Below, one piece after another: positions 17,096 through 46,090 of a stretch of 46,180 bases of DNA. The stretch covers positions 1 to 46,180 of the IMG/VR virus record IMGVR_UViG_3300031806_000001; one strand, written 5' to 3'. A program made the position numbers and the translations under genes. Below the pieces are notes generated by a model. The model did no database searches. It was not told the DNA's origin and saw only the letters and a list, made by a program, of their open reading frames with translations. The stretch comes from a virus. Each line of letters opens with the position of its first letter. The first letter of the stretch is position 1.

Positions 17096-18247
17096 ATGAT
17101 GCAGTGTGATGCACAACGTGTCTGGTGTTACCGCGGCCGACGACTCCGCCAGGTGGAGTGGGGCCTCTGGCGCGACCTCGGCCGCCCCGGCTGGTTCTTC
17201 CTCTGCTACCGGCCAGTCGGGCGGGAGGGTCCCGTCGTCCGCCGTTGGGTCTACGCCGATGGCGTGCACCTCCGCCTCGAAGAGATCCAGAACCATGTCC
17301 GCGCCGTGCGCGCCCAGATCAACGCCCGGAAGGTTGGCATCCCCTTGGGCGTGAACTTCGATGGCGCCTGCGCCGAGTACCTCCTCGAACTCCAGCGGCG
17401 GAACCGCACCGCGCATCATGTTGCCCAGACCCGTCTCAGCCTCCAGCGGTTGAGGGACACGCTCCCCATGCGCCATGTTGGCGACCTGCGGACCGCCGCT
17501 GTCGAAAAGTTCCTCGCCACCCTTCAGCGACGGGGCCTCGGACCACGCAGCCTCAACAAGGCGCGGGGGCACCTGTCGGGGTTCTGCACGTGGGCGATCC
17601 GCCGGGGGTACCTGACGGTCAACCCGGCCCTCCAGACGCCGAGGACGCAGGAGACCATCCGCTTGCCATCCTTCCCGAGTCCTGAAGACATGTGCGCACT
17701 CGTCCGCAGATCGGACCTGGCTCAGGCGCGCCTGTGGTGCCTGCTCGCGTTCACAGGTCTGCGCCTCGGCTCGTTCCTGGCTCTCGAGCTGGAGGACTTC
17801 AGGCCGGACGGGATCCTTGTCCGCCACACGAAGCGTGGATGCGAATGGTGGTTGGACTACGACGACGGTTGTCCGCTGTGGGGCCGCGACCTGTCCGACC
17901 TTGGCCAGGTCGCATGGATGGGGGGGCCTCCGAACGAGCTGAGACTCCGCAAGGCACTACGAAGGGCGAGCCGAGATCTGGGGGCTCAACTGACGCCCCA
18001 TGGCTTCCGACATGCGTTCTGTTCCTGGCTGACTATGGCCGGCGAAAGCCTTCAGGACGTAGCGGCTTGGGCGCACCATTCCAGCGCAGGAACCACGGAG
18101 CGCTGGTATGCTCACCTGCGCCCACGCGGGCAGGAGCGCGCCATGGCGAACAGAACGGCAGTACTCACGATGCGTTCACAGTGCATGAAGCTGGCCCTGG
18201 GCAGGGAGGTTGCGTCTGACGCAACCTCTCTAGATTCAAGGAGTTAG
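17096..18247 (+). CDS. int: Tyrosine recombinase (integrase)
   Basis: 383 aa. The N-terminal 85 residues are unusual, Arg/Trp-rich and strand-like, a possible arm-binding domain. A SAM-like core-binding domain follows (about 88-180: ACAEYLLELQ...SLNKARGHLSGFCTWAIRRGYL), then the catalytic domain with Arg223 (FTGLRLG), Lys246, His302-x-x-Arg305 (HGFRH), His328 and the nucleophile Tyr338 (TTERWYAHL). It would integrate and excise the phage at attP. A tRNA-Met-like half lies 12 bp after its stop, the usual place of attP. Starts ATG ATG at 17096 after AGG. Full catalytic set, so probably active. Confidence 0.92.
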   Translation: MMQCDAQRVWCYRGRRLRQVEWGLWRDLGRPGWFFLCYRPVGREGPVVRRWVYADGVHLRLEEIQNHVRAVRAQINARKVGIPLGVNFDGACAEYLLELQRRNRTAHHVAQTRLSLQRLRDTLPMRHVGDLRTAAVEKFLATLQRRGLGPRSLNKARGHLSGFCTWAIRRGYLTVNPALQTPRTQETIRLPSFPSPEDMCALVRRSDLAQARLWCLLAFTGLRLGSFLALELEDFRPDGILVRHTKRGCEWWLDYDDGCPLWGRDLSDLGQVAWMGGPPNELRLRKALRRASRDLGAQLTPHGFRHAFCSWLTMAGESLQDVAAWAHHSSAGTTERWYAHLRPRGQERAMANRTAVLTMRSQCMKLALGREVASDATSLDSRS

Positions 18248-19861: not shown

Positions 19862-21226
19862 TCAGGACTCCTTCTTCACGAGCTGCTTCTTGGCCTTCGG
19901 GTTCGTTTGCTTCCGTGGCCGCCGCTTGGGACTTCGCTTCTTCTCGGTCCCGCCGCCAGGGTTTGGTCCAGCCTCCTTCTCGGCCTTGGGTGCTCCGTCC
20001 GCGGCAGACCCGCCCTCAGCTTGTCGGGCCTTTGGCGGCTCCGGCTGCCCTTCCGCCTCCTCCTTGGTGCATGGCGCGAGGAGATACATCACGGCTGGCC
20101 CCCGTTCGAACACAGCGACATCATGGGCGCCGCCGAACTTCATCTTGAGGAGATGGTCGCCCGCGGCCTTGAGCAGCTCGGCCAGCAGATCGCCCCTGAA
20201 CCCGACGCTACGCTGCTGCCCATCCCAGGTAGCAGACACGTCTACATGAGCCTTGCCGACGTTGGCCGAGTCCACTTCCAGCCGGACGCCGCCCTTGCTG
20301 AACGTAAGCTGAACCATCACGTTCTCCTCGGTGCTCACGCTCATGGCCGCCTTGACGCCGGCAAGGAGCCACGGCGGGTGAAAGGTCGCAGTGTGCTTCG
20401 CTCGCTTCCGCGCGGTGGCCATAACTTCGTCGTACTCGGGGAAGTTCCCGTCCATCACAGCCGCCAGCCATCTGCCCGCCCAACTCTCTGCGACCAAGTA
20501 GCGAGGCTCTGGCGTCTCGTCCTTGCCTTCCTTCGCCGTCTCCGGTGCCTGACCGATGGCTCCCAAGCGGACCCGGCCGGACGAAGCCTCGGCCAGTGCC
20601 TCCAGGTCGCGCACGGCGCGGAGGGGGACGAACCACTCGGCGGTCATACGGCCAGGATTGACCAAGCTGCACTGGACCATCGCGAGACGTGCTGTGTCCG
20701 TTGCGCACGCCCGGCAACCGCCGTCAGCGTTGATCTTCAGGTGGACCCCGTTGATCATGAACCGGCCTCGCTCGGGTGCCGCCGCGAACGCCGTATGCCT
20801 GAGCATGTAGAGCAGGCTATCCGGCTCGACCTCCACGACGCCGTCCCCGGGCATTGCCATGCGCACCGGGAAGTCCCCGGGATTCTCCGTGAACAGGCGT
20901 GCTTCGCCCGTGCTCCACTGAAGGACCGACTCTTCGGCACTTTCGGTCTGCGTGATCGACAGCGTGACCGACTCGTCTCTCGGTAGCCGCGCAACCACGC
21001 CCTGGAGCCGTCTGTAAGGAATGAGCGCGATGCCGGGCTCGTCAACTTGCGCCTCCTCCACCACACGTTCCAGCCAGATCTCCAGGTCCGTCGCGTCCAC
21101 GACCAAGCCTTTCTCACTCGCCGTGACCCGCACGTTCTCGTAGAGCGGGACCATCGGCCCACCAATGGCGTTGTGCAGGGCCCTGAGGGCCTCATCCAAC
21201 GGCCTCACTCTGACTGTGACTCTCAT
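19862..21226 (-). CDS. DNA polymerase III beta-like sliding clamp
   Basis: 454 aa from ATG 21224-21226, with GGAGGGACG before it; a longer frame adds nine residues without a site. Residues 1-386 read as three clamp domains: MRVTVRVRPLDEALRALHNA, then DATDLEIWLERVV, FTENPGDFPVRM, LLYMLRHTAFAAA (domain 2 start), CATDTARLAMVQC, GNFPEYDEVM and the ending HDVAVFERGPAVMYLLAPC, matching the DnaN fold and closing strand. The last 68 residues are a basic Lys/Pro/Gly-rich tail absent from DnaN proteins. It would form a ring on DNA that tethers a polymerase or other clamp-binding enzymes. Clamp genes are rare in phages of this size. Fold call is good; the partner polymerase is not in the window. Confidence 0.82.
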   Translation of the reverse strand: MRVTVRVRPLDEALRALHNAIGGPMVPLYENVRVTASEKGLVVDATDLEIWLERVVEEAQVDEPGIALIPYRRLQGVVARLPRDESVTLSITQTESAEESVLQWSTGEARLFTENPGDFPVRMAMPGDGVVEVEPDSLLYMLRHTAFAAAPERGRFMINGVHLKINADGGCRACATDTARLAMVQCSLVNPGRMTAEWFVPLRAVRDLEALAEASSGRVRLGAIGQAPETAKEGKDETPEPRYLVAESWAGRWLAAVMDGNFPEYDEVMATARKRAKHTATFHPPWLLAGVKAAMSVSTEENVMVQLTFSKGGVRLEVDSANVGKAHVDVSATWDGQQRSVGFRGDLLAELLKAAGDHLLKMKFGGAHDVAVFERGPAVMYLLAPCTKEEAEGQPEPPKARQAEGGSAADGAPKAEKEAGPNPGGGTEKKRSPKRRPRKQTNPKAKKQLVKKES

Positions 21227-21249
21227 CGTCCGTCCCTCCACACAGGAAC

Positions 21250-21903
21250 TCATGTGCCGTCACCCACCATCTCGCCAGATTCCACCGCCTGCAGCATTGC
21301 CCGGAGGTTGCATTGGCACCTCTCTGCCAGTCGGATGTACTCCTCTAGAGGTTGGGCGTTGAGTCCCTCCGCCTCCGCGACGGTCCGGGCGAACCGCGCG
21401 AAGGGTCCAGCCAGTTCCTCCGTCTCGAGTTCGATGCGTATGCAGCGACTCAGGAGTGGGCCGGCGTCCTCATGGTCTTCGCCCAGGCTCTCCTGACCGG
21501 CCTTCGTCGTCGTGAAGACCCACAGCCCGCGCGGCGCGATGGGCTCCAGCGCGGTGAGCAACTGCCGGATCATCCCGGTGTGGAGCCCCTGCGCCTCGTT
21601 CACGATGTACGCCCGGCCACCCGGGGCCCCCATCCCGGCCAAGTAGAGCGTGGCGCGCATCTCCTCGAGGCGCCGGGGGTGCAGCTCGCCGGCGTCCAAC
21701 TCCACGGTCGCCATCGGGTTGGCGACGAAGCCGGCGATGATGCGGGCGAGCGTCGTCTTGCCCGTGCCGCTCGGCCCGCAGACCCAGTAGGCGTGCCCGC
21801 CGAGCCCGCGCTCAGCCAAGAGGCGGATCTTCCGCACCGCTTTGGGCTGGCCCACGACTTCGTCCAGGTTCCGAGGCCGATACCGCTCATACAGTGGCTC
21901 CAT
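21250..21903 (-). CDS. Minimal clamp-loader AAA+ ATPase (DnaX/RFC-small-like)
   Basis: 217 aa. Starts LYERYRPRNLDEVVGQ, the diagnostic opening of clamp-loader ATPases. Walker A GPSGTGKTT (43-51), Walker B-type IVNEAQGLH (100-108, Asn in place of the usual Asp), sensor 1 WVFTTT (128-133) and the SRC arginine-finger motif LLSRC (150-154). The small helical lid follows and the protein ends, lacking the roughly 130-residue collar domain needed to form a pentamer on its own. It is encoded immediately before the clamp, so it probably opens that clamp, either with host loader subunits or with the product at 19210-19860. Confidence 0.87.
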   Translation of the reverse strand: MEPLYERYRPRNLDEVVGQPKAVRKIRLLAERGLGGHAYWVCGPSGTGKTTLARIIAGFVANPMATVELDAGELHPRRLEEMRATLYLAGMGAPGGRAYIVNEAQGLHTGMIRQLLTALEPIAPRGLWVFTTTKAGQESLGEDHEDAGPLLSRCIRIELETEELAGPFARFARTVAEAEGLNAQPLEEYIRLAERCQCNLRAMLQAVESGEMVGDGT

Positions 21904-23398: not shown

Positions 23399-24091
23399 TC
23401 AGCGTTCGTTGCTGGCCGGCAGGGGAGGGCCAGGTAGGTCGGGGGTGCGCGCGGCCATGAAGTCCCGTAGCGCTTGCGGCCGCGCGTGGAGGTATACGCC
23501 TGTGGTCGCGATGCTCGAGTGGCCAAGCTGCTGCTGAACTGCGGGCAGTGGCACGCCGTCCTCGATCAGTTCCGTCGCGTGCGCGTGCCGGAGTTTGTGC
23601 GGCGTGAACATCGGCGCCCGGTCTGGAGCGACCTTACCGCGGCGCACCGCGCGCAAGGCCAGGCGCTTCACGAGCTGCTGCAGGTATCGCGGCGATACGG
23701 ACTCGCCCTTGAGCGTCGAGAAGAAGGTCTGCGCGCGCGGCCGGCGCCCGTCCCATGCCCGGAGCCAGGCGACCGTCGCCGGGTCAACCGTGACCGTTCG
23801 GTCACGGCCCCCCTTGCCGTTGCGCACTTCGATCTGGTTCAGGTCCCACAGAACGTCGCGCCGCCGGAGGTCGCAGATCTCCGAGACTCGCAGGCCGCCC
23901 CGGTGCATCAGCTCAAGGATGGCCCGGTTTCGGAGACCGGTCGGGCAGCGGGTGTTGGGCATGGTCTTCAGCGCCGCGCATTCCTCGCGAGACAGTATCA
24001 CGGGGAGGCCCCGGCGCCGCCTTCTCAGTGCCCGCTGCTCAGAGTTCGCTTTTGCAGGTTCCGGGCTCGACGGCTCGGCCGAAGCGGTCAT
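23399..24091 (-). CDS. Second tyrosine recombinase, catalytic domain only
   Basis: 230 aa. ATG at 24089-24091 has GAGGA seven bases upstream; a longer frame starting near 24148 has no site. After a 30-residue basic leader the XerC/D-type catalytic domain is complete: Arg68 (HRGGLRVSEI), Lys93 (NGKGGRDR), His165-x-x-Arg168 (HKLRHAHAT), His191 (LGHSSIATT) and Tyr200. The N-terminal core-binding domain of about 90 residues is missing, so DNA clamping would have to come from elsewhere, or the protein acts as a small invertase/resolvase-type enzyme. Its leader contains nested inverted repeats that may be its site. Confidence 0.87.
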   Translation of the reverse strand: MTASAEPSSPEPAKANSEQRALRRRRRGLPVILSREECAALKTMPNTRCPTGLRNRAILELMHRGGLRVSEICDLRRRDVLWDLNQIEVRNGKGGRDRTVTVDPATVAWLRAWDGRRPRAQTFFSTLKGESVSPRYLQQLVKRLALRAVRRGKVAPDRAPMFTPHKLRHAHATELIEDGVPLPAVQQQLGHSSIATTGVYLHARPQALRDFMAARTPDLPGPPLPASNER

Positions 24092-24144
24092 AACTTGTCC
24101 TCTGCAATGGCTTTGCGGGCCTTCACGAGCCCCGCGACGGGCTC

Positions 24145-24225
24145 GCATACAGTACGGCTTCCCTACCTAATGCGTAGCGTATCACGCTCGTTGCAGCCCG
24201 GCGGAAGCGAAAGCGTACTGTATGC
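24145..24225. other. Nested inverted repeats upstream of the second recombinase
   Basis: GCATACAGTACG at 24145-24156 is exactly inverted at 24214-24225. Nearly at the centre lies a smaller dyad AGCGT-ATC-ACGCT (24176-24188). This symmetric layout of arms around a core resembles a recombination site; in RNA it could also form a long-loop hairpin in the recombinase leader. Nothing else is visible in the 24092-24456 gap besides the two promoters. Confidence 0.6.
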
Positions 24226-25370: not shown

Positions 25371-27863
25371 CTAAATAAGGCCAACCGTCAGTTCAGGCGA
25401 CGCGGGTTGGTCGGAGTCGGCGGTGGCACTGTGCTCATCTGTGTTGCTCGTCTCGAGCCCTGCCGGCCAGGCGGCGGTCGCCACACGCACCACGAACCGA
25501 TACTCCTGCTCGTTCGTCAGTGGCCCGCTTGTCCAGTCGTAGCGCGTGGCCGAACTCGGCCCGCCCATGCTGAGCACGGCGTAGGGCGCCGCGTAGCTGA
25601 CGGTGCCGGTCCCGGCGTCCCAGTAGACGCGCGCCTCCTGTCCGGCCCCTGGGCCGTTCTCCTCGTCGTGCGGCTCGTAGAGCCAGTCAACGCAGATCCG
25701 CCCGTCCTCGACGGCCGTCGCGTCCACGAGCCGCGGGACCGCCGGACGCGCGACCAGGTTGCCACCAACCACGGCCAGGGCCAGCATCCGGGCGATGTTC
25801 GCGTCCTCGTTCCCGTCGCCGTCCACGGCCCGCACGGACCAGATGAACAGCCCCGTCTCGTTCGTGAAGGCCCGCTCGTAGTAGAGCGCAACCGACTCCT
25901 GGACCGGGGCGCTCGCGGGGTCGAGGGGCCCACTGCCCCCGTTACTCCGCACTCGATAGCTGACGACGTCCGCACTCGGCGAGGCACTCCAGGAGATCCG
26001 GAGCGTCTTGGTAGCGGGCGTCCAAGTGTAACTCAGGCTCGCCGGCGGTTCGGGCGCGCTCGAGACGATGGCGGTGCGGCCGACGCTCACGCCGATGTCC
26101 CCCTCCTCATCCACCGCATGCACCTGGTAGGTGTAGACGCCGTCCGGGAGGGGTCCGTCATCGTAGAGCTGGGTTGGCAGCGTCGTGATCAGCTCGTACG
26201 CGCCACCCCCGAGCTTCCGGTAGACGCGATACTCTACTGCGTCAGCGACCGCCGTCCATGCACAGCGGACGACGTCGCGGGGCGTGCGGAGCCACGCCAG
26301 CAATTCCGATTCGGTGAGGCCGGGCTCGGCGATGACCTGGAGGTACTGGCGGACTTCCAGGTCCGCGGTCAAGCGGCACACGCGGTCCGTCGTGTGATGA
26401 ACGATCCGACCATCGGCGACAACCCAGAAGGCCGTCCCCTCTGTCAGCAACGGGGCGCTCCATGTCAGCTCGCGCGACTCCGCGTCCGGGACGGCGATGC
26501 CATACGGGATGATGTGGAGGCCGACGGCAGCCGTGACTGCCTTCGCGACTGTCCCCCGGGCCTCATCGGCAGCCATCCCGTCGAGAACGCCCGACAGCGC
26601 GTGGGCCAAGGTCCCGCAGCCTAGCTCCTTGTAGCGCGCGTCATCCGAGACCTCCGTGAGCAGGATGGCGACCGTCCCCACATGGTCGGCCCGCCGCCAG
26701 GCATCGCTGACATCGCTGATGGCGAGCGCGATGGTGCCGACCGGCTCGGCGGAGTAGGTCGCTTGGTCGAGCACATCGTTGAGCGTCTCGAGCATCGTGC
26801 CGACGTGGTCGGTCCGCGTCCAGTGCTCCGTCTCGATTCCGGTGAGAGCGAGCGCGATGGTGCCCTGGCACTCGACCACCGTGTCGCTCTCGCCGGTGAG
26901 CGCAAGAGCCATCCCGCCGACCGCCTCCGCGACCCACTCCTTCTCGGCCGCGATCCCCGTCAAGACCAGCGCTGGCATGCCCAGGTCCAGGTGCAGGTAG
27001 TGCTGCCACGCTGATACGTTCCCAACGACGCGGGCAGACGTCCCGACCTGGTCGGCGTAGTGCAGCAGATCGGAGACGCCCCCGACTGCCTCGACCAGAC
27101 CGCCCCGCTGCAGCTCGTGGTAGTGCTGCTGCTCGGCAGCCCCAGTGAGGGCAAGGGCGAGCCCGCCGACCGTCTCGGCGACCCACTCCTTCTCAACGGC
27201 GATCCCCGTGAGTGCCGAGGCCATCGTCCCGACGTGGTCGTCGTACCTCTGCAGGTCAATCAAGCCACTCAGCGCCAGGACCAGCGTCGCCAGCGCCAGC
27301 TCGCAGTACCGCTGCATATCGGTCCGCCCAGTCACTGCCTTCGCAATCGTCCCGACGTTCTCCGTGGCCTGGTAGGTGACGGTGAGCTTGAGCTGGTCGA
27401 GGCGGACGGAGGCCCCCGCGGTGCTGGTGTAGACGAGCACACGGACGAGGTTGCCCGCGCTCCGGTAATCCCCTGGGGTCGAGGTGATGGACCGCGTCAG
27501 GTTGTACTCGCCAGCCGCACCGCCCGTGTGCGACTGCACGACCTCCCAGGAGGATGTGTTCCAGTTCCAGACCTGCGCGGTCGTACTCTCGCCGCCGGCG
27601 TCGTACATGTTCAGGAACACGTCGAGTTGCGTCAGCGGCTGGGCGGTGATCGGGATCTCGAAGATCAGGCCGCCGTACTGCCAGGGACCGGATGGCGGTG
27701 GGTAGTAGCTGCTGTGGGTGACGTAGGAGCCGTTGTCGGTGGAGGCATTCGTCAACTCGCTCGAGTTGAGCGCGGACTCCTTCCACCCGTCCACGCCGTT
27801 CGGCAGGGATGACTCGCGGCCCCGCCAACCGCTCCCATCGCTGGGGTACCGGTACTGGATCAC
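25371..27863 (-). CDS. Fibre-like tail protein with about 14 short repeats and FN3 domains
   Basis: 830 aa, GTG start at 27861-27863. Residues 1-165 look like a beta-sandwich (FEIPITAQPLTQLDVFLNMY, VRVLVYTSTAGASVRLDQLKLTVTY). Residues about 168-460 are some 14 tandem repeats of 20-22 aa with the pattern GT-x-ALALTG-x5-8-RY-x-DHV. Residues about 500-830 contain fibronectin-III-like domains (VEYRVYRKLGGGAYELITTL; LRISWSASPSADVVSYRVRS) and end as a beta domain. Last gene of the late operon, where host-contact proteins usually lie. Likely a receptor-binding or tail-tip decoration protein; repeat folding is unknown. Confidence 0.72.
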   Translation of the reverse strand: MIQYRYPSDGSGWRGRESSLPNGVDGWKESALNSSELTNASTDNGSYVTHSSYYPPPSGPWQYGGLIFEIPITAQPLTQLDVFLNMYDAGGESTTAQVWNWNTSSWEVVQSHTGGAAGEYNLTRSITSTPGDYRSAGNLVRVLVYTSTAGASVRLDQLKLTVTYQATENVGTIAKAVTGRTDMQRYCELALATLVLALSGLIDLQRYDDHVGTMASALTGIAVEKEWVAETVGGLALALTGAAEQQHYHELQRGGLVEAVGGVSDLLHYADQVGTSARVVGNVSAWQHYLHLDLGMPALVLTGIAAEKEWVAEAVGGMALALTGESDTVVECQGTIALALTGIETEHWTRTDHVGTMLETLNDVLDQATYSAEPVGTIALAISDVSDAWRRADHVGTVAILLTEVSDDARYKELGCGTLAHALSGVLDGMAADEARGTVAKAVTAAVGLHIIPYGIAVPDAESRELTWSAPLLTEGTAFWVVADGRIVHHTTDRVCRLTADLEVRQYLQVIAEPGLTESELLAWLRTPRDVVRCAWTAVADAVEYRVYRKLGGGAYELITTLPTQLYDDGPLPDGVYTYQVHAVDEEGDIGVSVGRTAIVSSAPEPPASLSYTWTPATKTLRISWSASPSADVVSYRVRSNGGSGPLDPASAPVQESVALYYERAFTNETGLFIWSVRAVDGDGNEDANIARMLALAVVGGNLVARPAVPRLVDATAVEDGRICVDWLYEPHDEENGPGAGQEARVYWDAGTGTVSYAAPYAVLSMGGPSSATRYDWTSGPLTNEQEYRFVVRVATAAWPAGLETSNTDEHSATADSDQPASPELTVGLI

Positions 27864-37050: not shown

Positions 37051-37953
37051 TCAGGCGTTCGTCGGGATGTAGCGGATGACCACGCTGAACGCCGGCATGT
37101 CCGCCGTCGCGCCCTGGGTCACCGTCAGCGTCACGTGCTCGCCGGCCTGGAGGACCTTGTGGGTCGCATTCAGCGCGCCCAGGTCCTCGTAGTCATTCGT
37201 CGGCGGCTGCGTCCCTGTGTTGTACGTCTTCGTGACGATGGTGTTGTCCGCATCGTCAGCCACCGTCAGGACCACGGTGTTGCCGTCGTCCACCCCAGCC
37301 GGGGCGCCCTCGGTCAGGATGCCGACCGACACGAGCGTCACTGCTCGGGGATGCACGAACACGGGCCGGTCCGCGATGTCGGCGCCTGCCGCCAGGTTCT
37401 CGACGGCGATGCGCACCGCCTGTTCGGCGTGCGCGTCGTTGAGCGTCACCGCACCGGTCCCGGCGAGCGTTGCGTCGCCGCTGACCGCCTGGTCCTCGTA
37501 CGAGTCGCCGTCCGCCACGAGGATGCGCCCGGCCGTGTAGTCGAGGGCCCCGACGTCGCTCAGGTCGGCGAGCCCCAGGGTCTCCGCGATGGCCGACTCG
37601 ACGGACCGCACGTCCGTGATGACCCGCTCATCCGTGTCCGCCGCCGCCGCGACGGCGAACCCCATGAAGATGTTGCCGGTCCGTGTGGTGGTCGCTGCTC
37701 CGGTGCCTGCCGTTCCGCCGACGGGGTTCCCGTCAGCATCCCAGTACACGGCCACGCCGCCGCCACTGAACGCGACCGCCGCCTTCTGGGCCTTGAAGAT
37801 GCCGCGGGTAGCGAGCGCGCCGAGCGTGTTCGCGGCGATGTCCACCTTCGCCACGGCCACCATCGTCCCCTGGACGATGACGTCGCCGGCGCTGACCGCG
37901 CTGCCCGGCGTGTAGTCCACCGACCCGCCTTCCTGCCAGAAGATTGCCTTCAT
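37051..37953 (-). CDS. Capsid decoration / head fibre protein with DUF2190-like domain
   Basis: 300 aa. Residues 1-110 match the DUF2190 type: an opening KAIFWQEGGSVDYTPGSAVS, DVIVQGTMVAVAKVDIAANT, LATRGIFKAQKAAVAFSGGG, VYWDADGNPV. This domain is found in proteins encoded right after the major capsid protein and likened to capsid cement. Residues about 110-300 are a second, beta-rich domain (VGALDYTAGRILVADGDSYE, TLVSVGILTEGAPAGVDDGN, FSVVIRYIPTNA), perhaps the exposed part. ATG at 37951-37953. Confidence 0.75.
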   Translation of the reverse strand: MKAIFWQEGGSVDYTPGSAVSAGDVIVQGTMVAVAKVDIAANTLGALATRGIFKAQKAAVAFSGGGVAVYWDADGNPVGGTAGTGAATTTRTGNIFMGFAVAAAADTDERVITDVRSVESAIAETLGLADLSDVGALDYTAGRILVADGDSYEDQAVSGDATLAGTGAVTLNDAHAEQAVRIAVENLAAGADIADRPVFVHPRAVTLVSVGILTEGAPAGVDDGNTVVLTVADDADNTIVTKTYNTGTQPPTNDYEDLGALNATHKVLQAGEHVTLTVTQGATADMPAFSVVIRYIPTNA

Positions 37954-38058: not shown

Positions 38059-39621
38059 TCAGGCTGTGCCCTTCATCTTGATCGCAGCCACCCACTCGGC
38101 CAACGCGACGCCGAAGTCGTGGTAGCCTCTCACCTGGATGCCCAGGACGTTGAAGTCCGCGTCGGCGCCCTCGACCGTCGGCGTCTGCTTTCCGTCCAGG
38201 AACATCACGACCATCACGGGCACGTCCTGCGGATCGGCGAGCAGATGCCACGCCGTGCTGGACCACCCGGTCAACGTGCTGTCCGACAGATATGCCGAGA
38301 TGACGGGCTTGTACTTCCCCGCGTGGGCGTTGTCGTTCGGCACCTTGGTCTTCGTGGACGCGCCGCCTGTGTTGATGTTCCGGCTGACGTACAACTCGTC
38401 TGCCGTCGTCTCGAGTTCCGGCGGAACGAGCAACTTCCTGGGCGCAACGCCCACGAGCTGCTTGTCCGAGTCCTTGAGTTTCCGGAACATCTCGACGCCC
38501 TTGCTCAGTGAAGCGCTGTCCAGCGCCGTGTCCGCACCCGCGGCGTAGTTGCCGCGGGCCGAGGTGAAGAATGTGGCGTTGTCCAGGAACGCCGCCCAGA
38601 AGAGTTTGTTCAGCTTCAGGGCCCCGCCCCGGCCCACCCGCTGCCGGAGGTCGTCGAAAGCACCGAGGTCATCGTTGATGATGTCCTGCCGCGTGATCAC
38701 GAACATCCGCCCGTATGTGTCGGCCTTGGTCGTGTACTTCTCGTCCGTGGTTGTCCCGTGCTTGAGCTCACCGGTGGGCCCGACCTGCTGGTACTCCATG
38801 TCACCGCACAGGCGATAGTGCGTGTGCGTGTGGAAGTTGTTGGTCGGCTTGACCGCCGCGACCTCTCTCCAGGACGCATCCACGTGCATGAACGCGTCCA
38901 GGAGGACCTTGTTAGCGATGTTCGACAGGATGTCGCTTGCCGCCTGCGTCGAGAACGCAGCCCGCAGGGCCGCACCGACGTTCCCCGAGTGGACGCGCCG
39001 GTCGGTGAAGCCGTTCGCCCAAGCCAATTCGAGCACGAACATGCCCGCGCCGATGGGGCCGCCGTACCGCTTGCGGGTGCTGGTCAGGACCGGCTCGCCG
39101 TACGCCTTGGCGACGCACTCCTCGCTGAGTCCGGTCCCGAGGCAGAGCGCCGCCTCGACGATCTTCGGCCCGCCCTCATCCTGCGCGGTCTTGATGCTCG
39201 GCGCTTTCGGGCGCTCGGCCCGGAGGAGGGCCAGTTCCGTGTCTCGCGTGTCCCAGCCGTCCTCAATGGCTTTCGCCCGGATGCCCGCGAGCGCTTGGGC
39301 CTCGAGCTTGCCGTCGTATGTCGCGCAGAGCTTCTGCACGTCCGCGATGCGGCGCTCCTCAGTCGCGACGGCTTCCCGTGTGGCCTTGACCGCCTTGGCC
39401 TCGCCGCTCTTTGCTGAGTCGCTTGCCTCGGGTTCTGTGTCCCTGGCCCTGCCACGCAGATCCTTGGGCTTCTCGGATTCGTCGGCCTGCTTGCCGTCCG
39501 ACTTGTCCTTCTCCTTGGCCGTGCTTTCGACATCCCACTTCGCCTTCAGAGCTCCCTTCTGCTGGTCACTCAGGTCCTCCAGCCGGAAGCCCATCGCTTC
39601 GAGCCATTTCTCAAACGTCAT
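38059..39621 (-). CDS. Nested in-frame product: scaffold plus major capsid protein
   Basis: The ATG at 39619-39621 (codon 274 of the fusion) is preceded by AGGAGGGGGAACC, the best Shine-Dalgarno in the head module. It would start a 520-aa protein consisting of the scaffold and capsid domains without the protease. This mirrors lambda, where the scaffold Nu3 is made from an internal in-frame start in protease gene C, and would let many capsid subunits be made for each protease-bearing one. The site is seen; use of the start is inferred. Confidence 0.68.
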   Translation of the reverse strand: MTFEKWLEAMGFRLEDLSDQQKGALKAKWDVESTAKEKDKSDGKQADESEKPKDLRGRARDTEPEASDSAKSGEAKAVKATREAVATEERRIADVQKLCATYDGKLEAQALAGIRAKAIEDGWDTRDTELALLRAERPKAPSIKTAQDEGGPKIVEAALCLGTGLSEECVAKAYGEPVLTSTRKRYGGPIGAGMFVLELAWANGFTDRRVHSGNVGAALRAAFSTQAASDILSNIANKVLLDAFMHVDASWREVAAVKPTNNFHTHTHYRLCGDMEYQQVGPTGELKHGTTTDEKYTTKADTYGRMFVITRQDIINDDLGAFDDLRQRVGRGGALKLNKLFWAAFLDNATFFTSARGNYAAGADTALDSASLSKGVEMFRKLKDSDKQLVGVAPRKLLVPPELETTADELYVSRNINTGGASTKTKVPNDNAHAGKYKPVISAYLSDSTLTGWSSTAWHLLADPQDVPVMVVMFLDGKQTPTVEGADADFNVLGIQVRGYHDFGVALAEWVAAIKMKGTA

Positions 39622-40440
39622 GGTTCCCCCTCCTGAAAGGTGAAGCCTTGCGGCTATGCGTAGCGCCGTGGAGCCATCTGCCCCAACAGGCAGGATGGAC
39701 ACCTCGCGCAGTATGGACCTCTTCACGTGGTAGAACGGCGGCTTCTGCACCCGTCCGTTGAGCGTTCGTTCTGCCGTGACTAGCTCGGATTCCAACACCT
39801 CGGCACCTATCGAGAGCTGCCAGTCGGCACCCGCCCGCGCCTGCTCGACCACGCCCTCGGCCACGCCACTCGAGGAGACGATCTCGCCCTCGATGACGAG
39901 AGTGCCGCCCTGTATCCGGGCCCGCACCATGCCCACACGACTTCCGGTGCGATTCTCATGGTTCACGAGCAATGGCACGGCCTCGGGAAGCTGGAGGCCA
40001 GCCAGGTCAACCACGACAGGATGCCGCCAGCCCGGCAGGGCCATCTTTCCCCCCGAGTAGGCGAGCCCCCGCACCCGCGGTCCACCACCTTCGCCCTCCA
40101 CCAGCATCAACTCGCCTGCCGGCGCGCCTTCAGCCTTCTCCGGGCTCGCGGGCTCGAAGAAGATGGGGTGGTGGTCGTGGTCCTTCAGCCAAGCGCGCGC
40201 CTGAGCCTCTGTGAACTTACTCGCATCGAACCGGATGGCCTGCAACTCGACGACTTCCTTGCCACCCTCGTCCTTGATGCCCCAGATAGCGTGAATGCCA
40301 GTCCCGAACTTGTCGTTCTCGCGCCGGAAGCGCTTGTACTGGTCCGGGTCCTTCAGGCGCGCCGCGTGCTCATTCGCGTACGGAGCTTGCAGATACCCCC
40401 CTCCACCAGCACCCGCGCGGATGGCTTCAGATGCGCCCAT
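38059..40440 (-). CDS. Fused prohead protease - scaffold - major capsid protein
   Basis: 793 aa. Residues 20-100 are a domain often found in front of Mu-like/prophage head proteases (YANEHAARLKDPDQYKRFRR; QAIRFDASKFTEAQARAWLK). Residues 125-265 are an HK97-type serine protease with His161 (LLVNHENRTGSRVG), Ser210 (WQLSIGAEV) and Glu246 (ILREVSILPVG). Residues 274-415 are a charged, Lys/Glu-rich scaffold. From about 416 to 793 is the capsid domain (LELAWANGFTDRRVHSGNVG; FMHVDASWREVA; TYGRMFVITRQDIINDDLGA; FWAAFLDNATFFTSARGNYA). A strong ribosome site before Met274 offers a second product. Overlaps the portal gene by 14 bp. Confidence 0.87.
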   Translation of the reverse strand: MGASEAIRAGAGGGGYLQAPYANEHAARLKDPDQYKRFRRENDKFGTGIHAIWGIKDEGGKEVVELQAIRFDASKFTEAQARAWLKDHDHHPIFFEPASPEKAEGAPAGELMLVEGEGGGPRVRGLAYSGGKMALPGWRHPVVVDLAGLQLPEAVPLLVNHENRTGSRVGMVRARIQGGTLVIEGEIVSSSGVAEGVVEQARAGADWQLSIGAEVLESELVTAERTLNGRVQKPPFYHVKRSILREVSILPVGADGSTALRIAARLHLSGGGTMTFEKWLEAMGFRLEDLSDQQKGALKAKWDVESTAKEKDKSDGKQADESEKPKDLRGRARDTEPEASDSAKSGEAKAVKATREAVATEERRIADVQKLCATYDGKLEAQALAGIRAKAIEDGWDTRDTELALLRAERPKAPSIKTAQDEGGPKIVEAALCLGTGLSEECVAKAYGEPVLTSTRKRYGGPIGAGMFVLELAWANGFTDRRVHSGNVGAALRAAFSTQAASDILSNIANKVLLDAFMHVDASWREVAAVKPTNNFHTHTHYRLCGDMEYQQVGPTGELKHGTTTDEKYTTKADTYGRMFVITRQDIINDDLGAFDDLRQRVGRGGALKLNKLFWAAFLDNATFFTSARGNYAAGADTALDSASLSKGVEMFRKLKDSDKQLVGVAPRKLLVPPELETTADELYVSRNINTGGASTKTKVPNDNAHAGKYKPVISAYLSDSTLTGWSSTAWHLLADPQDVPVMVVMFLDGKQTPTVEGADADFNVLGIQVRGYHDFGVALAEWVAAIKMKGTA

Positions 40441-41902
40441 GCCCTACCTCGTTCAGCTCTCTGTCGACTTGACGCTGCCATCGGGCCTCACTCGCCGCCT
40501 CGCCTTCCTCATCTCGCTTCTCGCCGCCCTTTCCCGAGAAGAGCTTCCGGCGGATGAGTCCCTGGTACTCCTCGAGCGATACGCCCAGGGCTTCAGCTCC
40601 CTTCTGGAACTCAGCCCGCCAGTCCTGGCCTCGGGCGGCATAGATCGCAGGATGCGTGGTCGCCCCGCTCGCCAGTCGTTCGGTCTCCGCATTGGCTTCG
40701 CGTGGGTCTATCGGCTCTCGCTGCTGCCAGAGCCACTCATGGTCGGGCTCGTCCTCAAGAACCCAGCCGAATTCCGCCCGGGCCTCCGGCAGCCACTCGG
40801 CCAGGACCGGGTCGAGCACCTGTTCGCCCATGTCGGCCTGGACGACACCGATGCCCCGGAAGTACGTCCCGTGGTCCAGCCGACCGGACGCGAAGTTGTA
40901 GTCACTGGAATCGCCGGCAGCGATGTTCCGCGGCATGGCGAGTGGCCGGCCCATGTCGGTCGTGTTCTCGCGCTTGAACTCCCGGTATGTGCTGGCCGGT
41001 TGCTGCGGCTGGAACTGGGCCATCTTCCAGCCCGCTGGCACGGTGACCATGACGTTCCGCTCGATCTCGACCGTGTCCATCGGTTCGACCTCGGCCGCTT
41101 CGCCCGCCGGCGGTGCATCGGTGTAGAGCAACGCGCTGAGATCGGCCGCCGTCTCGGCCGCCGCGAGCACAGCCAACGTGAACCGCCGCTGATATGCAGC
41201 CAAGGGTAGACAGGCGAGGATGCTGGGCACGCCTCTGTGCTGCTCCGGCCTGAACGGGACAAACCAGTGCAGCACCCACCGGCTGTCATACTCGTGGTAG
41301 CTCTGGAAGGCGGAGTAGCCGACGCCCTCAGGGTGCGAGTCGAGGACCTCGTAGCGGATCGCGTTCCCGTCCTTGTCCAGGATCACCCCGTCAACGTTGT
41401 TCTCATCGAGCATCGCTCGTGGGCTGTGAAACCGGTCGCATTCGAGCAGTCGGATGTCCAACTTCACGGGGTACTTCAGCCGCTCATTCGTCGTGAACAG
41501 GGCGAACCCTTCACCGTCAACGACGCGTGCGCGCGACAGCAGACGGAGCTTCCGGCCGAGTCCGACCTTCGCCCCGTAACGCAGCCATTCGCGTTCCACC
41601 TCCTGGTTCAGCTCCACGTCCGGCGTCAGCAACTGAAGGCGCGGGCCGTGCTGTCCCACGACGTCCCATGTGTAGGTGTCCACGATTCCCAGGAGCGTCG
41701 AGTTGTTCGTCGTCTCGTATCGGGCTCGCTCTCGTAGCCGCTTCCGCACGCCGTAGCTGTTGGCCGCGTCTGCAGACAGCGAGTCCGCAGCCGCCCAATG
41801 GCGCAGGTTGTCGTCTGTGGTCTGGGCAGCGTCGTAGCGCCCTTCCACCGCGGCCCGGCGCACGACAACGCGGGGCCGTGTCTGTCGCCCGCTCAACTCC
41901 AT
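40427..41902 (-). CDS. Portal protein (lambda gpB family)
   Basis: 491 aa. Recognised from NSYGVRKRLRERARYETTNN, STLLGIVDTYTWDVVGQHGP, EREWLRYGAKVGLG, WVLHWFVPFRPEQHRGVPSI, AYQRRFTLAVLAAAETAADL and NFASGRLDHGTYFRGIG, the conserved order in lambda-type portals. It forms the dodecameric ring through which DNA is packaged and ejected. The C-terminus is charged and includes a possible hinge (GLIRRKLFSGKGGEKRDEEG). Short overlap with the downstream capsid fusion gene. Length fits the family (about 480-530 aa). Confidence 0.92.
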   Translation of the reverse strand: MELSGRQTRPRVVVRRAAVEGRYDAAQTTDDNLRHWAAADSLSADAANSYGVRKRLRERARYETTNNSTLLGIVDTYTWDVVGQHGPRLQLLTPDVELNQEVEREWLRYGAKVGLGRKLRLLSRARVVDGEGFALFTTNERLKYPVKLDIRLLECDRFHSPRAMLDENNVDGVILDKDGNAIRYEVLDSHPEGVGYSAFQSYHEYDSRWVLHWFVPFRPEQHRGVPSILACLPLAAYQRRFTLAVLAAAETAADLSALLYTDAPPAGEAAEVEPMDTVEIERNVMVTVPAGWKMAQFQPQQPASTYREFKRENTTDMGRPLAMPRNIAAGDSSDYNFASGRLDHGTYFRGIGVVQADMGEQVLDPVLAEWLPEARAEFGWVLEDEPDHEWLWQQREPIDPREANAETERLASGATTHPAIYAARGQDWRAEFQKGAEALGVSLEEYQGLIRRKLFSGKGGEKRDEEGEAASEARWQRQVDRELNEVGHGRI

Positions 41903-42323: not shown

Positions 42324-42509
42324 TCAGCAGGCTTCCTCATACGTCGGAACCCGCCGTCCGCAGTTCCGGCACTCCCGCATCCGCATGATCCGCTGTCGTG
42401 AAGCGGGCCGTGTGTAGACGACCCAGAAGTGCCTGCAGCCGCAGCGCGTGCATACCAGGCCCCGCTCCTCCTCTGGCGGCTTGGCCTCGTTCGGGGGCTC
42501 CTTCCTCAT
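42324..42509 (-). CDS. NrdR-like zinc-ribbon protein
   Basis: 61 aa. ATG at 42507-42509 overlaps the terminase stop (ATGA). CTRCGC (about 18-23) and ECRNCGRRVPTYE (about 45-57) form a zinc ribbon whose second half closely resembles the NrdR N-terminal ribbon (RRRECRNCGRRFTTYE type). Stand-alone ribbons of this kind occur next to terminase genes in several phages. NrdR itself binds palindromic boxes upstream of ribonucleotide-reductase genes; whether this protein binds the palindrome six bases past its own stop is an open question. Confidence 0.75.
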   Translation of the reverse strand: MRKEPPNEAKPPEEERGLVCTRCGCRHFWVVYTRPASRQRIMRMRECRNCGRRVPTYEEAC

Positions 42510-44698
42510 CGCCACCCTCGCTTCTGCCGCTGTAACTCGGACAGCCGTCTGCGCTGCTTCGGTTGTTGCGGCCGCGCGCCTACCATACCCCCGACGTCCA
42601 GGCCGCAGTAAGACGCGCCTGCCGCGCACCCGACAAGGCAGTCGAACAGGTGGTTGTCAGGCTGATGCGGGGGCAACCGCCACTCATCCACATGCCGCCC
42701 GCGGCCTTCGGTCGCCACCCGGTACTCAGCCGTCACGTGTGCCGCAAGCATCTTGTGCAGCGTGCCCTGCCGACCATACAGTGAGAGGCATCCGCGGTCG
42801 CCCATGGGTGTCGCCAGACGGTCGTAGACGAACGACTTCCAGTAGTTCACATCAACTTCGAGGTGCCGCAACACGCGTCTCCCCTTGGTAGCAGGGACCC
42901 ACCAGTGATGTCCGATCCGCTCGCCAGTCCCCCGCCGATACTCCGAGACCGGCACCTGGCTCGCGCCGATGGGCTGCCCCCGGCTCGGCATGACCAGAGC
43001 GCCGTGCTCCGACTGCCGGCAGAACAGATGGACGGTATCCGGCTGCCATCCTTGGTCCACGAACAGTTGGTTGATCCGCATGACGGCCCCGTTCTCACTC
43101 ACCCATTCGCGGCCAGTTAGGTTACCGATGAGCTTCTCGAGGCCAGCGTAGAGCGCCCCTTCGATGCCTGCGCCCGGGTGCGCTCGACAAAGGGTGCGGC
43201 GTGCTTGCCGCATCGTGAAGTACCTTAGTCCCTGCTCGGGGTACGTGCCATAATCTATGACGTAGCCTGTGAATCCGGCTTCCCAGGCGCAGACAGCGTA
43301 GTAGAGCAACCGTTGGCCAGGGTCCACGAACGCCGTCAGGAAGTGCGTGCCCGCTGGCGGCTGGTACCGTGCGCGGCCGTTCACCTTCGCGGCGACGGCA
43401 CTCGCGTCCAGCTTCGCCGCGTTCGCGTCGCGCGGAAGCGGGTCGTTTTGATACTCGGACCAGAAGGCACGCTCATCCCTCAACTTCAGGTTCATCGCGT
43501 GCTGGATGGCACTCGCCTCATCCGCGTCGTGCCAGTGCTGCCACACGACAGCGGCACCTTCGTCCATTGCGTCGCGGTGTTCCCTGTAGAAGGCCGTCGC
43601 ACTGGCCAGCCCACGCTCATCCCTCAAGTCCTCACTCCGGATGCGCGCATACTGCTCCCACAGCTCCTCGTTCGACGGCAGGGAAGCCATCAGCTTGATC
43701 CGGTCGCCCTGCCATTCGGGGTGGAGTTCGCGATCAATCATCCGGTCCGACAGGTCCCCTGGGACGATGACTGTGCAGAGCATGAACGCCGCCACCTTCT
43801 GGGCTGGCCCAGCCATGCCGAGAACTGCCCCATCAACCAGGGCTTCGCGGCTCTCAGTCTGCGTCTCGCTCCGGGCTGTCGCATCGGTCTGTGGGTCGTC
43901 GAGCAGGATCAACGACGGCCGCACGACTTTCGTCTCCCCGCTCGGCGTCGTCAGCGTATGTTTCATGCCCCGGATACCGGCACCGGTCAGGCCTGCCGTC
44001 TGGAGGATAGCCCCACTTGCGAGGCTGCTGGGGATGCTTGCCAGGACAAGCTTCTGTTCGGTGATGGTCATGGCTGTAGGCTGGCCATTGACGAGTTGAC
44101 CGCGAGCGCGCTGCGTGATGCCGTCGAGTTCACGGATCGGGAAGCAGACCTCCGGGAAGTCCTCGGCGAGCAGGTCATTCTCGGCAAGTTCGACGCGCAG
44201 GCTCTCCAGGATCTCGACGGATCGCGCCTTCGTCGCCGCCACGATGGCGACGTAATTCCGGCGTCCGCCGAGCACAGCCCATAGGCCACCTGTCTCGCTC
44301 GTGCTCGTCTTGCCGAATCCCCGTGGCGCTGCTAGCGCGTACAAGCCACCTTGCGTGACGACGATCTCTTGCTTCGCGAGGATAGCAAGGTGGGCTGGTG
44401 ACCAGGGGAGGTAGAACCTGCCGGGGAAGTACTGCTCGCAGAACACTCGGTAGGACGCCAGCGCGGCCTGTCGCCGTTCGGGGTTCTTGGGGTGTGGTAT
44501 CGGCCCGATCTCACGTCCGGCCCGGGAGATCCGCCGTGCGCGCGCGCCTGCTGCTTCTCTGTGCCGCTCGTAGGCCTCAGCCTCGGGCGCCTGCTTGCGC
44601 AGACGCTTCAGCATGCGCCACTCATCGGGCCTCAGTTCTAGTGGGTCGTTGCGGGCAAGTCGGAGCAACTCGCGGAGGGTCCGCTCCTGGCTCGACAT
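42506..44698 (-). CDS. terL: Terminase large subunit (gpA-like)
   Basis: 730 aa. ATPase domain with Walker A APRGFGKTS (124-132) and Walker B SLILLDDPQ (262-270), coupling region near VAAFMLCTVIVPGDLSDRM, and an RNase-H-fold nuclease with Asp459 (FLTAFVDPGQ) and Asp681/Asp686 (DNHLFDCLVG). The length and the GFGKTS form fit the large terminases of lambda-type packaging modules. It translocates DNA into the prohead and cuts it to length. The small subunit is not recognised in the window; it may lie past the right edge. ATG at 44696-44698. Confidence 0.92.
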   Translation of the reverse strand: MSSQERTLRELLRLARNDPLELRPDEWRMLKRLRKQAPEAEAYERHREAAGARARRISRAGREIGPIPHPKNPERRQAALASYRVFCEQYFPGRFYLPWSPAHLAILAKQEIVVTQGGLYALAAPRGFGKTSTSETGGLWAVLGGRRNYVAIVAATKARSVEILESLRVELAENDLLAEDFPEVCFPIRELDGITQRARGQLVNGQPTAMTITEQKLVLASIPSSLASGAILQTAGLTGAGIRGMKHTLTTPSGETKVVRPSLILLDDPQTDATARSETQTESREALVDGAVLGMAGPAQKVAAFMLCTVIVPGDLSDRMIDRELHPEWQGDRIKLMASLPSNEELWEQYARIRSEDLRDERGLASATAFYREHRDAMDEGAAVVWQHWHDADEASAIQHAMNLKLRDERAFWSEYQNDPLPRDANAAKLDASAVAAKVNGRARYQPPAGTHFLTAFVDPGQRLLYYAVCAWEAGFTGYVIDYGTYPEQGLRYFTMRQARRTLCRAHPGAGIEGALYAGLEKLIGNLTGREWVSENGAVMRINQLFVDQGWQPDTVHLFCRQSEHGALVMPSRGQPIGASQVPVSEYRRGTGERIGHHWWVPATKGRRVLRHLEVDVNYWKSFVYDRLATPMGDRGCLSLYGRQGTLHKMLAAHVTAEYRVATEGRGRHVDEWRLPPHQPDNHLFDCLVGCAAGASYCGLDVGGMVGARPQQPKQRRRLSELQRQKRGWR

Positions 44699-44708
44699 CG
44701 GCTCTCAC

Positions 44709-45482
44709 CTACGCCCTCCATGGAAGCTGTATGCGCCGTGGTGAGGTGTTGAACTCCCGGCGCGTCACCGATGTCGGCGTCCACTTGTGTACGACAACCT
44801 CGCCTCCGAAGTGCCGGATGAGATACGCCGTCGCCTCCTCCTCGGCACCCTGGTGGCGGAACTCCGCCATCCCTCCCTGACGGCGGTAGGTCTCGGCGAA
44901 ACTCCATGCGAATCGCCGGTCGTAATACGCGTACCGGTGGTAGTAAGCGTTCAGCAGGCAGACCCACCAGTCATCAACCGGCAGCGTGCAGTCCTCCGGC
45001 CACCAGAGTTTCGAGCCGGCCAGAACGCCGACTGATCCACCGGGAGTGTAGCCACCGAACGAGAAGGGGCGGCCCGGGTAGTAGGTCACCGGGTTGCAGT
45101 GGGCTCCGAAGCCGAAGAGGAATGCCCCGAGCCGTCGTGCCGTCTCGGCGACCGCTTGAACGATCTCGGCCGCACGGGTCGGCGAGCACCTCGTCCGTCG
45201 CGCCCTGTAGATCGTCGCATCTCGCGGTCTGTACAGCCGGTACAGGCCATTCGAGTCATCGTCCAACATCATCACATCGCCACACCGCTCACAGACCCAT
45301 TGTCGCTTCGCACAGAGCCCAACGACGGTATCTGGGTGCACCAGGAGGGTCTCCGGCGCATGGAACCTGGCATAGTCTTCGGCTTGCCCCTCGGGCACGC
45401 ATACCTTCGCGCCCTTCACATGCTCGTGCGTCGTGACCCGGCCAGCGCGCTTGTGGCTCAGGATCACTATCGGGACTTCCAT
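44709..45482 (-). CDS. GT-A-like glycosyltransferase-type protein
   Basis: 257 aa from ATG 45480-45482; the longer frame lies inside the ParB-like gene. Opens VPIVILSHKRAGRVTTHEHV, then KVCVPEGQAEDY, LCAKRQWVCERCGDVMM and LDDD (73-76), the nucleotide-sugar fold and acidic metal-binding motif of GT-A enzymes. A C-terminal domain with LFGFGAHCNPVTYYPGRPFS, DDWWVCLLNAYYHRYAYYDR and REFNTSPRRIQLPW follows. In phages, such proteins near ParB-like and terminase genes have been linked to DNA base hypermodification (TET/JBP-associated glycosyltransferases), but no base-oxidising enzyme is seen here. Transfer of a sugar to DNA or virion protein is a hypothesis. Confidence 0.62.
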   Translation of the reverse strand: MEVPIVILSHKRAGRVTTHEHVKGAKVCVPEGQAEDYARFHAPETLLVHPDTVVGLCAKRQWVCERCGDVMMLDDDSNGLYRLYRPRDATIYRARRTRCSPTRAAEIVQAVAETARRLGAFLFGFGAHCNPVTYYPGRPFSFGGYTPGGSVGVLAGSKLWWPEDCTLPVDDWWVCLLNAYYHRYAYYDRRFAWSFAETYRRQGGMAEFRHQGAEEEATAYLIRHFGGEVVVHKWTPTSVTRREFNTSPRRIQLPWRA

Positions 45483-46090
45483 CGCTGCATGAACTCCTGT
45501 TCGGTGAGGACATGCGTTACCCCGATCCGGCCTTTGCCGTCGTCCTTCTCGGGAAGCGCGAGCGCAGTTGCCAACTCCGCCCACTCCCGCTCCGTTCGGC
45601 AGAAGACCAGCAGCGCGTCGTAGCGCTCATCGAAGGTCGGCACGATGTCGAACACGGGCTTCGCCTTCTCCGCCTCATCGCGCACTTGCCGCGCCATGTC
45701 GTCCATGTGCCGAAACAGCTCAGCCAGTTCCCCATCGCCCTGCACTTCCGCAACCAGGGCCTGGTATGCCTCCTCGACCTCCTCCGCCATGCCCACGAGC
45801 GGATCAGCAAGCGCCAGCAGGGCCCGGGCCTCGGCGTCGTTCAGGTCGAGCACCAGTATGGGCACCTTAGCCTCATCAGACAGAAGCTCACGCCGGAGGT
45901 GTCCGTCTATCAGCGTCAGGCGGCCAGTCTGCTCAGACCGGTAGGCTACTAGCGCATCGGCGATGCCGATCCGCTCGAGCACTTGCGCCAGGATCTCTCT
46001 CTGTTCCGTCGGGTGCCGCCGGTAGTTCAGCGGATGGTCGTCCACCTCAGATGGCCGCACGTACTCCAACGCCGTTATGCGGCTACGCAT
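45467..46090 (-). CDS. ParB-like nuclease-domain protein
   Basis: 207 aa. ATG at 46088-46090 after AGGAGG. YVRPSEVDDHPLNYRRHPTE, EILAQVLERIGIADALVAYR and LTLIDGHLRRELL (IDGHLRRE at 61-68) form the ParB/Srx nucleotide-binding fold; PILVLDLNDAEARALLALAD follows. A helical middle (about 95-145) leads to a C-terminal domain with DIVPTFDERYDALLVFCRTE. Phage proteins of this kind act as CTP/ATP-dependent or nuclease adaptors upstream of terminase. Overlaps the glycosyltransferase-like gene by 16 bp. It may be part of packaging or of a DNA-modification step. Confidence 0.78.
   Translation of the reverse strand: MRSRITALEYVRPSEVDDHPLNYRRHPTEQREILAQVLERIGIADALVAYRSEQTGRLTLIDGHLRRELLSDEAKVPILVLDLNDAEARALLALADPLVGMAEEVEEAYQALVAEVQGDGELAELFRHMDDMARQVRDEAEKAKPVFDIVPTFDERYDALLVFCRTEREWAELATALALPEKDDGKGRIGVTHVLTEQEFMQRWKSR

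Follow-up and report, generated by a model that had tools for sequence, protein, structure and literature searches.

The window analysed here, a 46,180-nucleotide stretch of viral DNA, carries a 793-codon gene in which a protease, a scaffold and the major capsid protein are fused. We propose that ribosomes initiate on this gene at two in-frame sites, giving a 793-aa chain with the protease and a 520-aa chain without it, the short one being the bulk product; we place the probability of this reading at roughly 0.84. There are no protein data, and the production of both chains, the dominance of the short one, their co-assembly and their cleavage are all inferred. Initiation at codon 1 would yield the protease-scaffold-capsid chain, and independent initiation at codon 274 the scaffold-capsid chain, the expected bulk subunit. 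Because the scaffold and capsid domains are common to both, the long and short chains could co-assemble into one procapsid that encloses protease domains as a minority component; once the shell is built, the protease would remove the scaffold and itself, leaving mature capsid subunits. That translation sets the protease:capsid ratio is likewise an inference, made without protein or ribosome data. The nested start was first proposed in a sequence-only reading of this DNA, an interpretation that the comparisons below support. The sequence-level evidence comprises the domains of the gene, a conserved ATG or GTG with a Shine-Dalgarno (SD) motif and unstructured mRNA at the protease/scaffold junction, and an unbroken reading frame.

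A single gene for protease, scaffold and capsid

The gene, its parts and its neighbours all lie on the minus strand:

38059..40440 (-), fused protease-scaffold-major capsid gene, 793 codons (PHROG 4523 'major head and protease protein', 6.3e-69; NF045541, 1.4e-80)
39655..40077 (-), HK97/assemblin-type (S78-like) prohead protease domain, about residues 122-262 (catalytic triad, AlphaFold, Foldseek, Pfam)
39960-39958, 39813-39811 and 39705-39703 (-), catalytic residues His161, Ser210 and Glu246
39629..39634 (-), internal Shine-Dalgarno motif AGGAGG, with 7 nt between it and the internal ATG
39619..39621 (-), codon 274, the in-frame ATG of the proposed internal start (ATG or GTG in 157/163 aligned sequences)
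38059..39621 (-), nested ORF for a 520-aa scaffold-capsid product, frame and stop common to the full gene
39031..39621 (-), scaffold (delta-like) region, about residues 274-470, bounds approximate (charged, long helices, disordered stretch)
38077..38958 (-), HK97-fold capsid domain, Pfam Phage_capsid_4, residues 495-788 (1.7e-44; Foldseek to HK97-type capsids)
42506..44698 (-), terminase large subunit, upstream (GpA_nuclease 4.5e-18, PHROG 38/15)
40427..41902 (-), portal gene, with a 14-nt overlap onto the 5' end of the fused gene (Phage_portal_2 2.3e-40)
37051..37953 (-), head decoration/cement gene, downstream (Phage_cement_2 4e-16, PHROG 122)

The 793-codon ORF was confirmed. It begins at ATG 40440, and an in-frame stop two codons 5' of this ATG leaves no earlier usable start. 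Protease and HK97-fold capsid within a single 793-aa ORF satisfied our test for a tripartite architecture, and the PHROG 4523 match spans residues 152-791. The NF045541 score (271.6 bits) fell below the curated cutoff of 525 bits; since the cutoff is missed and the architecture is the same, we regard the gene as a divergent relative and do not file it as a member.

The sequence-only reading had assigned the N-terminal part to an HK97-type protease with His161, Ser210 and Glu246 as catalytic residues. These positions were right, and among 48 homologues at ≤70% identity the triad was near-invariant (His161 48/48, Ser210 48/48, Glu246 47/48). An AlphaFold model of the region (pLDDT 88) found its best Foldseek matches in herpesvirus assemblins, with probabilities of 0.99-1.00, E values of 4e-3 or weaker and a TM score of about 0.45. 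On this model the domain meets the expectation of an assemblin fold; its proteolytic activity is inferred. Pfam Peptidase_S78 matched only weakly (18.2 bits against a gathering score of 21; E 0.003), and 21/41 members of the window family matched it at E≤0.01.

The charged scaffold and capsid domain of the same reading were also borne out. In the AlphaFold model of the nested product, helices are predicted at nested residues 19-41 and 73-101, with a low-pLDDT stretch at residues 44-71 between them; the first ~130 residues are helical and include a charged, disordered stretch, as expected of a scaffold. Overall the 520-aa model (pLDDT 85) has HK97-type capsids as its best matches (probability 1.00) and is thus predicted to carry the HK97 fold; the nested frame runs through this domain and, as claimed, includes the capsid protein. 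All Foldseek comparisons were limited to the PDB.

The order of the head module is normal: terminase, portal, fused gene, cement/decoration gene. Elsewhere in the window, a TET-associated glycosyltransferase-like gene (44709-45584, -; Pfam TAGT 1.7e-8, PHROG 842) suggests modified bases in the phage DNA. A sliding clamp (DNA polymerase processivity factor, PHROG 947) adjoins a clamp-loader-like gene (PHROG 5846) at 19862-21903 (-), a phage-encoded pair that is unusual at a phage size of 46 kb. Integrase-family matches (PHROG 1/216) occur in two genes on opposite strands (17096-18247, +; 23399-24148, -), and an 830-aa ORF downstream of the tape measure gene (25371-27863, -) had no Pfam or PHROG match.

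A probable internal start at codon 274

The ribosome site and 520-aa nested frame proposed for codon 274 proved exact: the sequence directly 5' of this codon is CAGGAGGGGGAACC-ATG, with AGGAGG at 7 nt. Its predicted duplex with the anti-SD (-11.2 kcal/mol) is the best among all in-frame ATG, GTG and TTG codons of the gene, ahead of codon 133 (-9.4 kcal/mol) and of the primary start (-7.2 kcal/mol). The anti-SD in these calculations is that of E. coli; which host the window phage really has is unknown. The mRNA folding energy of the window gene by itself has no distinct minimum at codon 274; the clear minimum is that of the family mean.

A strong internal SD does not by itself fix how much of each chain is made, and it might be that the short product is minor and that the bulk of the capsid derives from full-length chains cut after assembly. 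Sequence alone does not allow an excess of the short product to be predicted, because primary SDs are sometimes as strong as internal ones: the internal SD is the stronger in the window and in phage mEp460, about equal in Gifsy-2 (-8.8 vs -8.6) and weaker in F10 (-6.9 vs -9.3). A few relatives (8/163) also manage without a clear internal site. We nevertheless consider a minor short form unlikely, since the internal site has the SD and the open mRNA structure expected of an efficient start, and in the window the internal SD outdoes the primary one (-11.2 vs -7.2).

Conservation of the junction start in the window family

Relatives of the window gene had to be gathered with alignments, as a single-protein scan of viral contigs returned only 3 whereas an alignment query returned more than 560. 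Four-sequence alignment scans yielded 80 viral contigs and 80 bacterial-genome loci, the latter mostly in Planctomycetota assemblies. The resulting window-type family comprised 163 aligned sequences, with 48 representatives at ≤70% identity and 14 at ≤50%. Relatives were ranked by match length, which may bias the set toward intact fusions. As one scan pattern was [TKE]MTFEKW, we also checked for sampling bias; most of the retrieved sequences lack this motif and were found through protease-domain patterns.

An alignment of homologous fused genes had been named in the sequence-only reading as a check on the internal site, with homologues lacking the site as grounds for refutation; it came out in favour of conservation. 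The column of Met274 holds ATG in 134 of the 163 sequences, GTG in 23, another codon in 5 and a gap in 1. Where the residue is Val, the codon is GTG in 23/23 cases, although GTG makes up 41% of the Val codons in those genes. Mean SD energy at the junction is -8.4 kcal/mol across the 48 representatives, against -2.5 kcal/mol for 561 other in-frame ATGs, and -6 is reached by 98% of junction sites compared with 7% of those other ATGs and 9% of out-of-frame ATGs. The junction is also the strongest anti-SD column of the whole alignment (-8.1; mean -2.75, s.d. 1.28). An ATG or GTG with an SD (≤-5 kcal/mol) lies within 8 codons of the junction in 46/48 representatives and in 14/14 at ≤50% identity, compared with 13-17% in control windows.

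We wondered how much of this signal could come from the encoded peptide, for it is conceivable that only the full-length chain is made, that each subunit's protease is cut off in the procapsid, and that a linker rich in Lys, Glu and Gly merely yields the SD-like motif incidentally. This account has some support. The published description of MD8 gp5 presents one three-domain gene and mentions no internal start (PMC8508860), and the linker peptides alone, written with synonymous codons, already give an expected SD of -6.2 kcal/mol, so the peptide supplies part of the signal. However, the junction SD is 2.2 kcal/mol stronger than synonymous codons for the same peptide would provide (Wilcoxon 1.6e-12), an effect not seen at other Met sites. 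The upstream hexapeptides differ in all 48 representatives, and the GGAG core is found in two reading phases, its end lying 6, 8 or 9 nt from the start codon; the nucleotide signal is therefore kept while the peptide changes. Folding energies in 60-nt windows point the same way: the family mean has a narrow minimum of structure at the start codon (-11.8 vs about -18 to -20 on either side), and synonymous shuffles at the junction fold 2.1 kcal/mol tighter (s.e. 0.44), with control sites going in the opposite direction. Such an open mRNA window is a usual mark of a used start and is independent of the SD measure. A linker by-product thus fails to explain the ATG/GTG-only column, the invariable GTG for Val, the fixed spacing, the SD beyond synonymous expectation or the mRNA structure minimum, a pattern that recurs in three families, and we think it quite improbable. 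The representatives are not fully independent, and the p-values are indicative only.

A clear SD and start are missing in 8/163 genes of the window family. Two of these (L094 and L161) keep the ATG with a weaker SD; in the others (L075/L079/L119, L152, L159 and L080) the fused ORF is kept and the internal start is seemingly absent. Judging by these exceptions, the arrangement can be dispensed with, or something else has taken its place in those lineages. We also looked at a second column with high anti-SD pairing, in the scaffold (column 1148, IxEGWD), and rejected it as a start: it has no start codon, and its pairing reflects the peptide.

The same signature in other fused genes

Fused capsid genes outside the window family carry an ATG with an SD at the protease/scaffold junction as well: codon 188 in mEp460, 220 in F10, 215 in RcKemmy, 223 in Psul1, 204 in Pd_22F and 221 in Gifsy-2, where the SD is GAGGAG (-8.8 kcal/mol). 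A junction start with SD was found in 17/20 representatives with a ClpP-related protease (Gifsy-2, mEp460 and F10 included) and in 30/37 other S78-fused representatives, against 7-12% in controls. In both sets the junction is the most conserved start-plus-SD position of the whole gene, and the structure minimum is present there too. The junction start thus appears to persist while the type of protease, ClpP or S78, changes. At ≤50% identity the ClpP type is reduced to 4 representatives, of which 2 have the site, a sample too small for a test. By eye only, a candidate junction start can be made out in fused genes of Synechococcus and Vibrio; no junction start was found in Achromobacter phage Mano, where a protease is fused to a PF05065 capsid. 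A second start within the ClpP domain (KEETW-M; Gifsy-2 codon 186, F10 codon 185) was considered as a general feature and discarded, as 12/20 representatives have a start there but no more than 4/20 an SD, and a conserved peptide accounts for the motif.

The reading frame from protease to capsid is a single uninterrupted ORF in 162/162 complete genes of the window family and in 85/85 of the ClpP type. The absence of linker stops in these 162 and 85 genes suggests, subject to the possible bias toward intact fusions, that the full-length product is also needed, and the retention of the internal site suggests that the full-length chain is not alone in mattering; both products are probably under selection. 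In two S78-type loci (L271, 2124-2140; L309, 2073-2098), the junction has a stop codon and then an SD-ATG; protease and scaffold-capsid are separate genes there, which shows that the nested unit can exist independently.

Such splits raise the prospect that the internal site is an unused relic, the start of a once-separate scaffold-capsid gene that has since been fused. The junction would then be a natural gene boundary, at which two relatives are indeed split and different proteases (ClpP or S78) have been joined at the same place. A relic would decay, however, whereas the site is intact in 46/48 representatives and in 14/14 at ≤50% identity, with codon-level selection, and we find this explanation very hard to sustain. 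Hardest of all to credit is a role of the SD-like motif in pausing ribosomes to let the protease domain fold ahead of scaffold synthesis, which would suit a site exactly between two domains but needs no start codon, ATG/GTG alternation or open mRNA, all of which are conserved.

Taken beyond the window, dual initiation may well be a general rule for tripartite capsid genes, whether ClpP-like or assemblin-like, in which a conserved start gives the protease-less bulk subunit and the full-length chain doses the protease. We think this generalization likely, though we hold it less firmly than the reading of the window gene itself.

Novelty and implications

The fusion of protease, scaffold and capsid is already known from Gifsy-2, MD8 gp5, PHROG 4523/133 and NCBIfam NF045540/NF045541. 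What appears to be new is the comparative case for an internal start. In the literature examined, which did not cover the original Gifsy-2 paper, we found no statement that fused genes use a nested start, and the main texts of the bacterial N-terminomics papers examined made no mention of phage or Gifsy. With the capsid protein included in its nested product, the gene would represent a new variant of the lambda device, for which priority cannot be claimed with the original Gifsy-2 paper outside the literature examined.

Fused genes pose a puzzle of stoichiometry: if every subunit came with its own protease, the procapsid would be crowded and cleavage might set in too soon. The conserved internal start would be a simple answer, with the lambda C/Nu3 device applied not just to a scaffold but to the capsid protein as well. 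If true, dual initiation would be a translational counterpart of the retroviral Gag/Gag-Pro logic. It would also imply that thousands of sequenced genomes encode a protein missing from their annotation, and that annotation pipelines give the main capsid subunit the wrong N-terminus. The ClpP-type fused gene is present in 2,104 of 5,426 complete E. coli genomes (about 39%); the internal site is present in two of the more divergent E. coli matches examined, and the nested product is not annotated in the records that we examined.

Comparison with known systems

The tripartite capsid gene of Gifsy-2 was reportedly described by Effantin et al. (2010, Virology 402:355). Gifsy-2, mEp460, cdtI, F10 and MD8 (NCBIfam NF045540) resemble the window in combining protease, scaffold and HK97-fold capsid in a single gene; unlike the S78/assemblin-type enzyme of the window, their protease is ClpP-related, and the part common with the window is only about 27% identical. 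Closer in architecture are the genes of NF045541 / PHROG 4523 (RcKemmy (Rhodobacter), Shewanella phage 1/44), which join an S78-type protease, a scaffold and a Phage_capsid_4 domain and have an internal SD and ATG at the junction, as in the window.

HK97 itself (gp4 and gp5) shares with the window the type of protease, a scaffold fused to the capsid (the delta domain) and the HK97 fold, but its protease is a separate gene. Herpesviruses, whose protease has the same fold as the window protease domain according to Foldseek, make a nested, protease-less scaffold product (UL26/UL26.5) from a separate transcript, and their capsid protein is a separate gene.

Lambda had been cited in the sequence-only reading as making its scaffold Nu3 from such a start in gene C. 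This holds as annotated, with an in-frame nested start in the protease gene and a common stop. In lambda gene C (L341, NC_001416), however, the annotated Nu3 start at codon 239 pairs only weakly (SD -2.7) and lacks a structure minimum; the strong nested start is the ATG at codon 309 (CTCAGGAGGGCGA-ATG, MTKETQ), with an SD of -10.8 and a folding minimum. N-terminal sequencing of purified lambda Nu3 reportedly pointed to a later start. The hallmark of the C/Nu3 type, an internal in-frame start with an SD and the same stop, is met in the window gene at the sequence level. The lambda protease is of the S49 type, unlike the S78-like one of the window, and its nested product is scaffold only, with the capsid protein encoded by a separate gene, E. 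As the nested frame of the window runs on through the capsid domain, the gene would work like C/Nu3 without being a member of that type.
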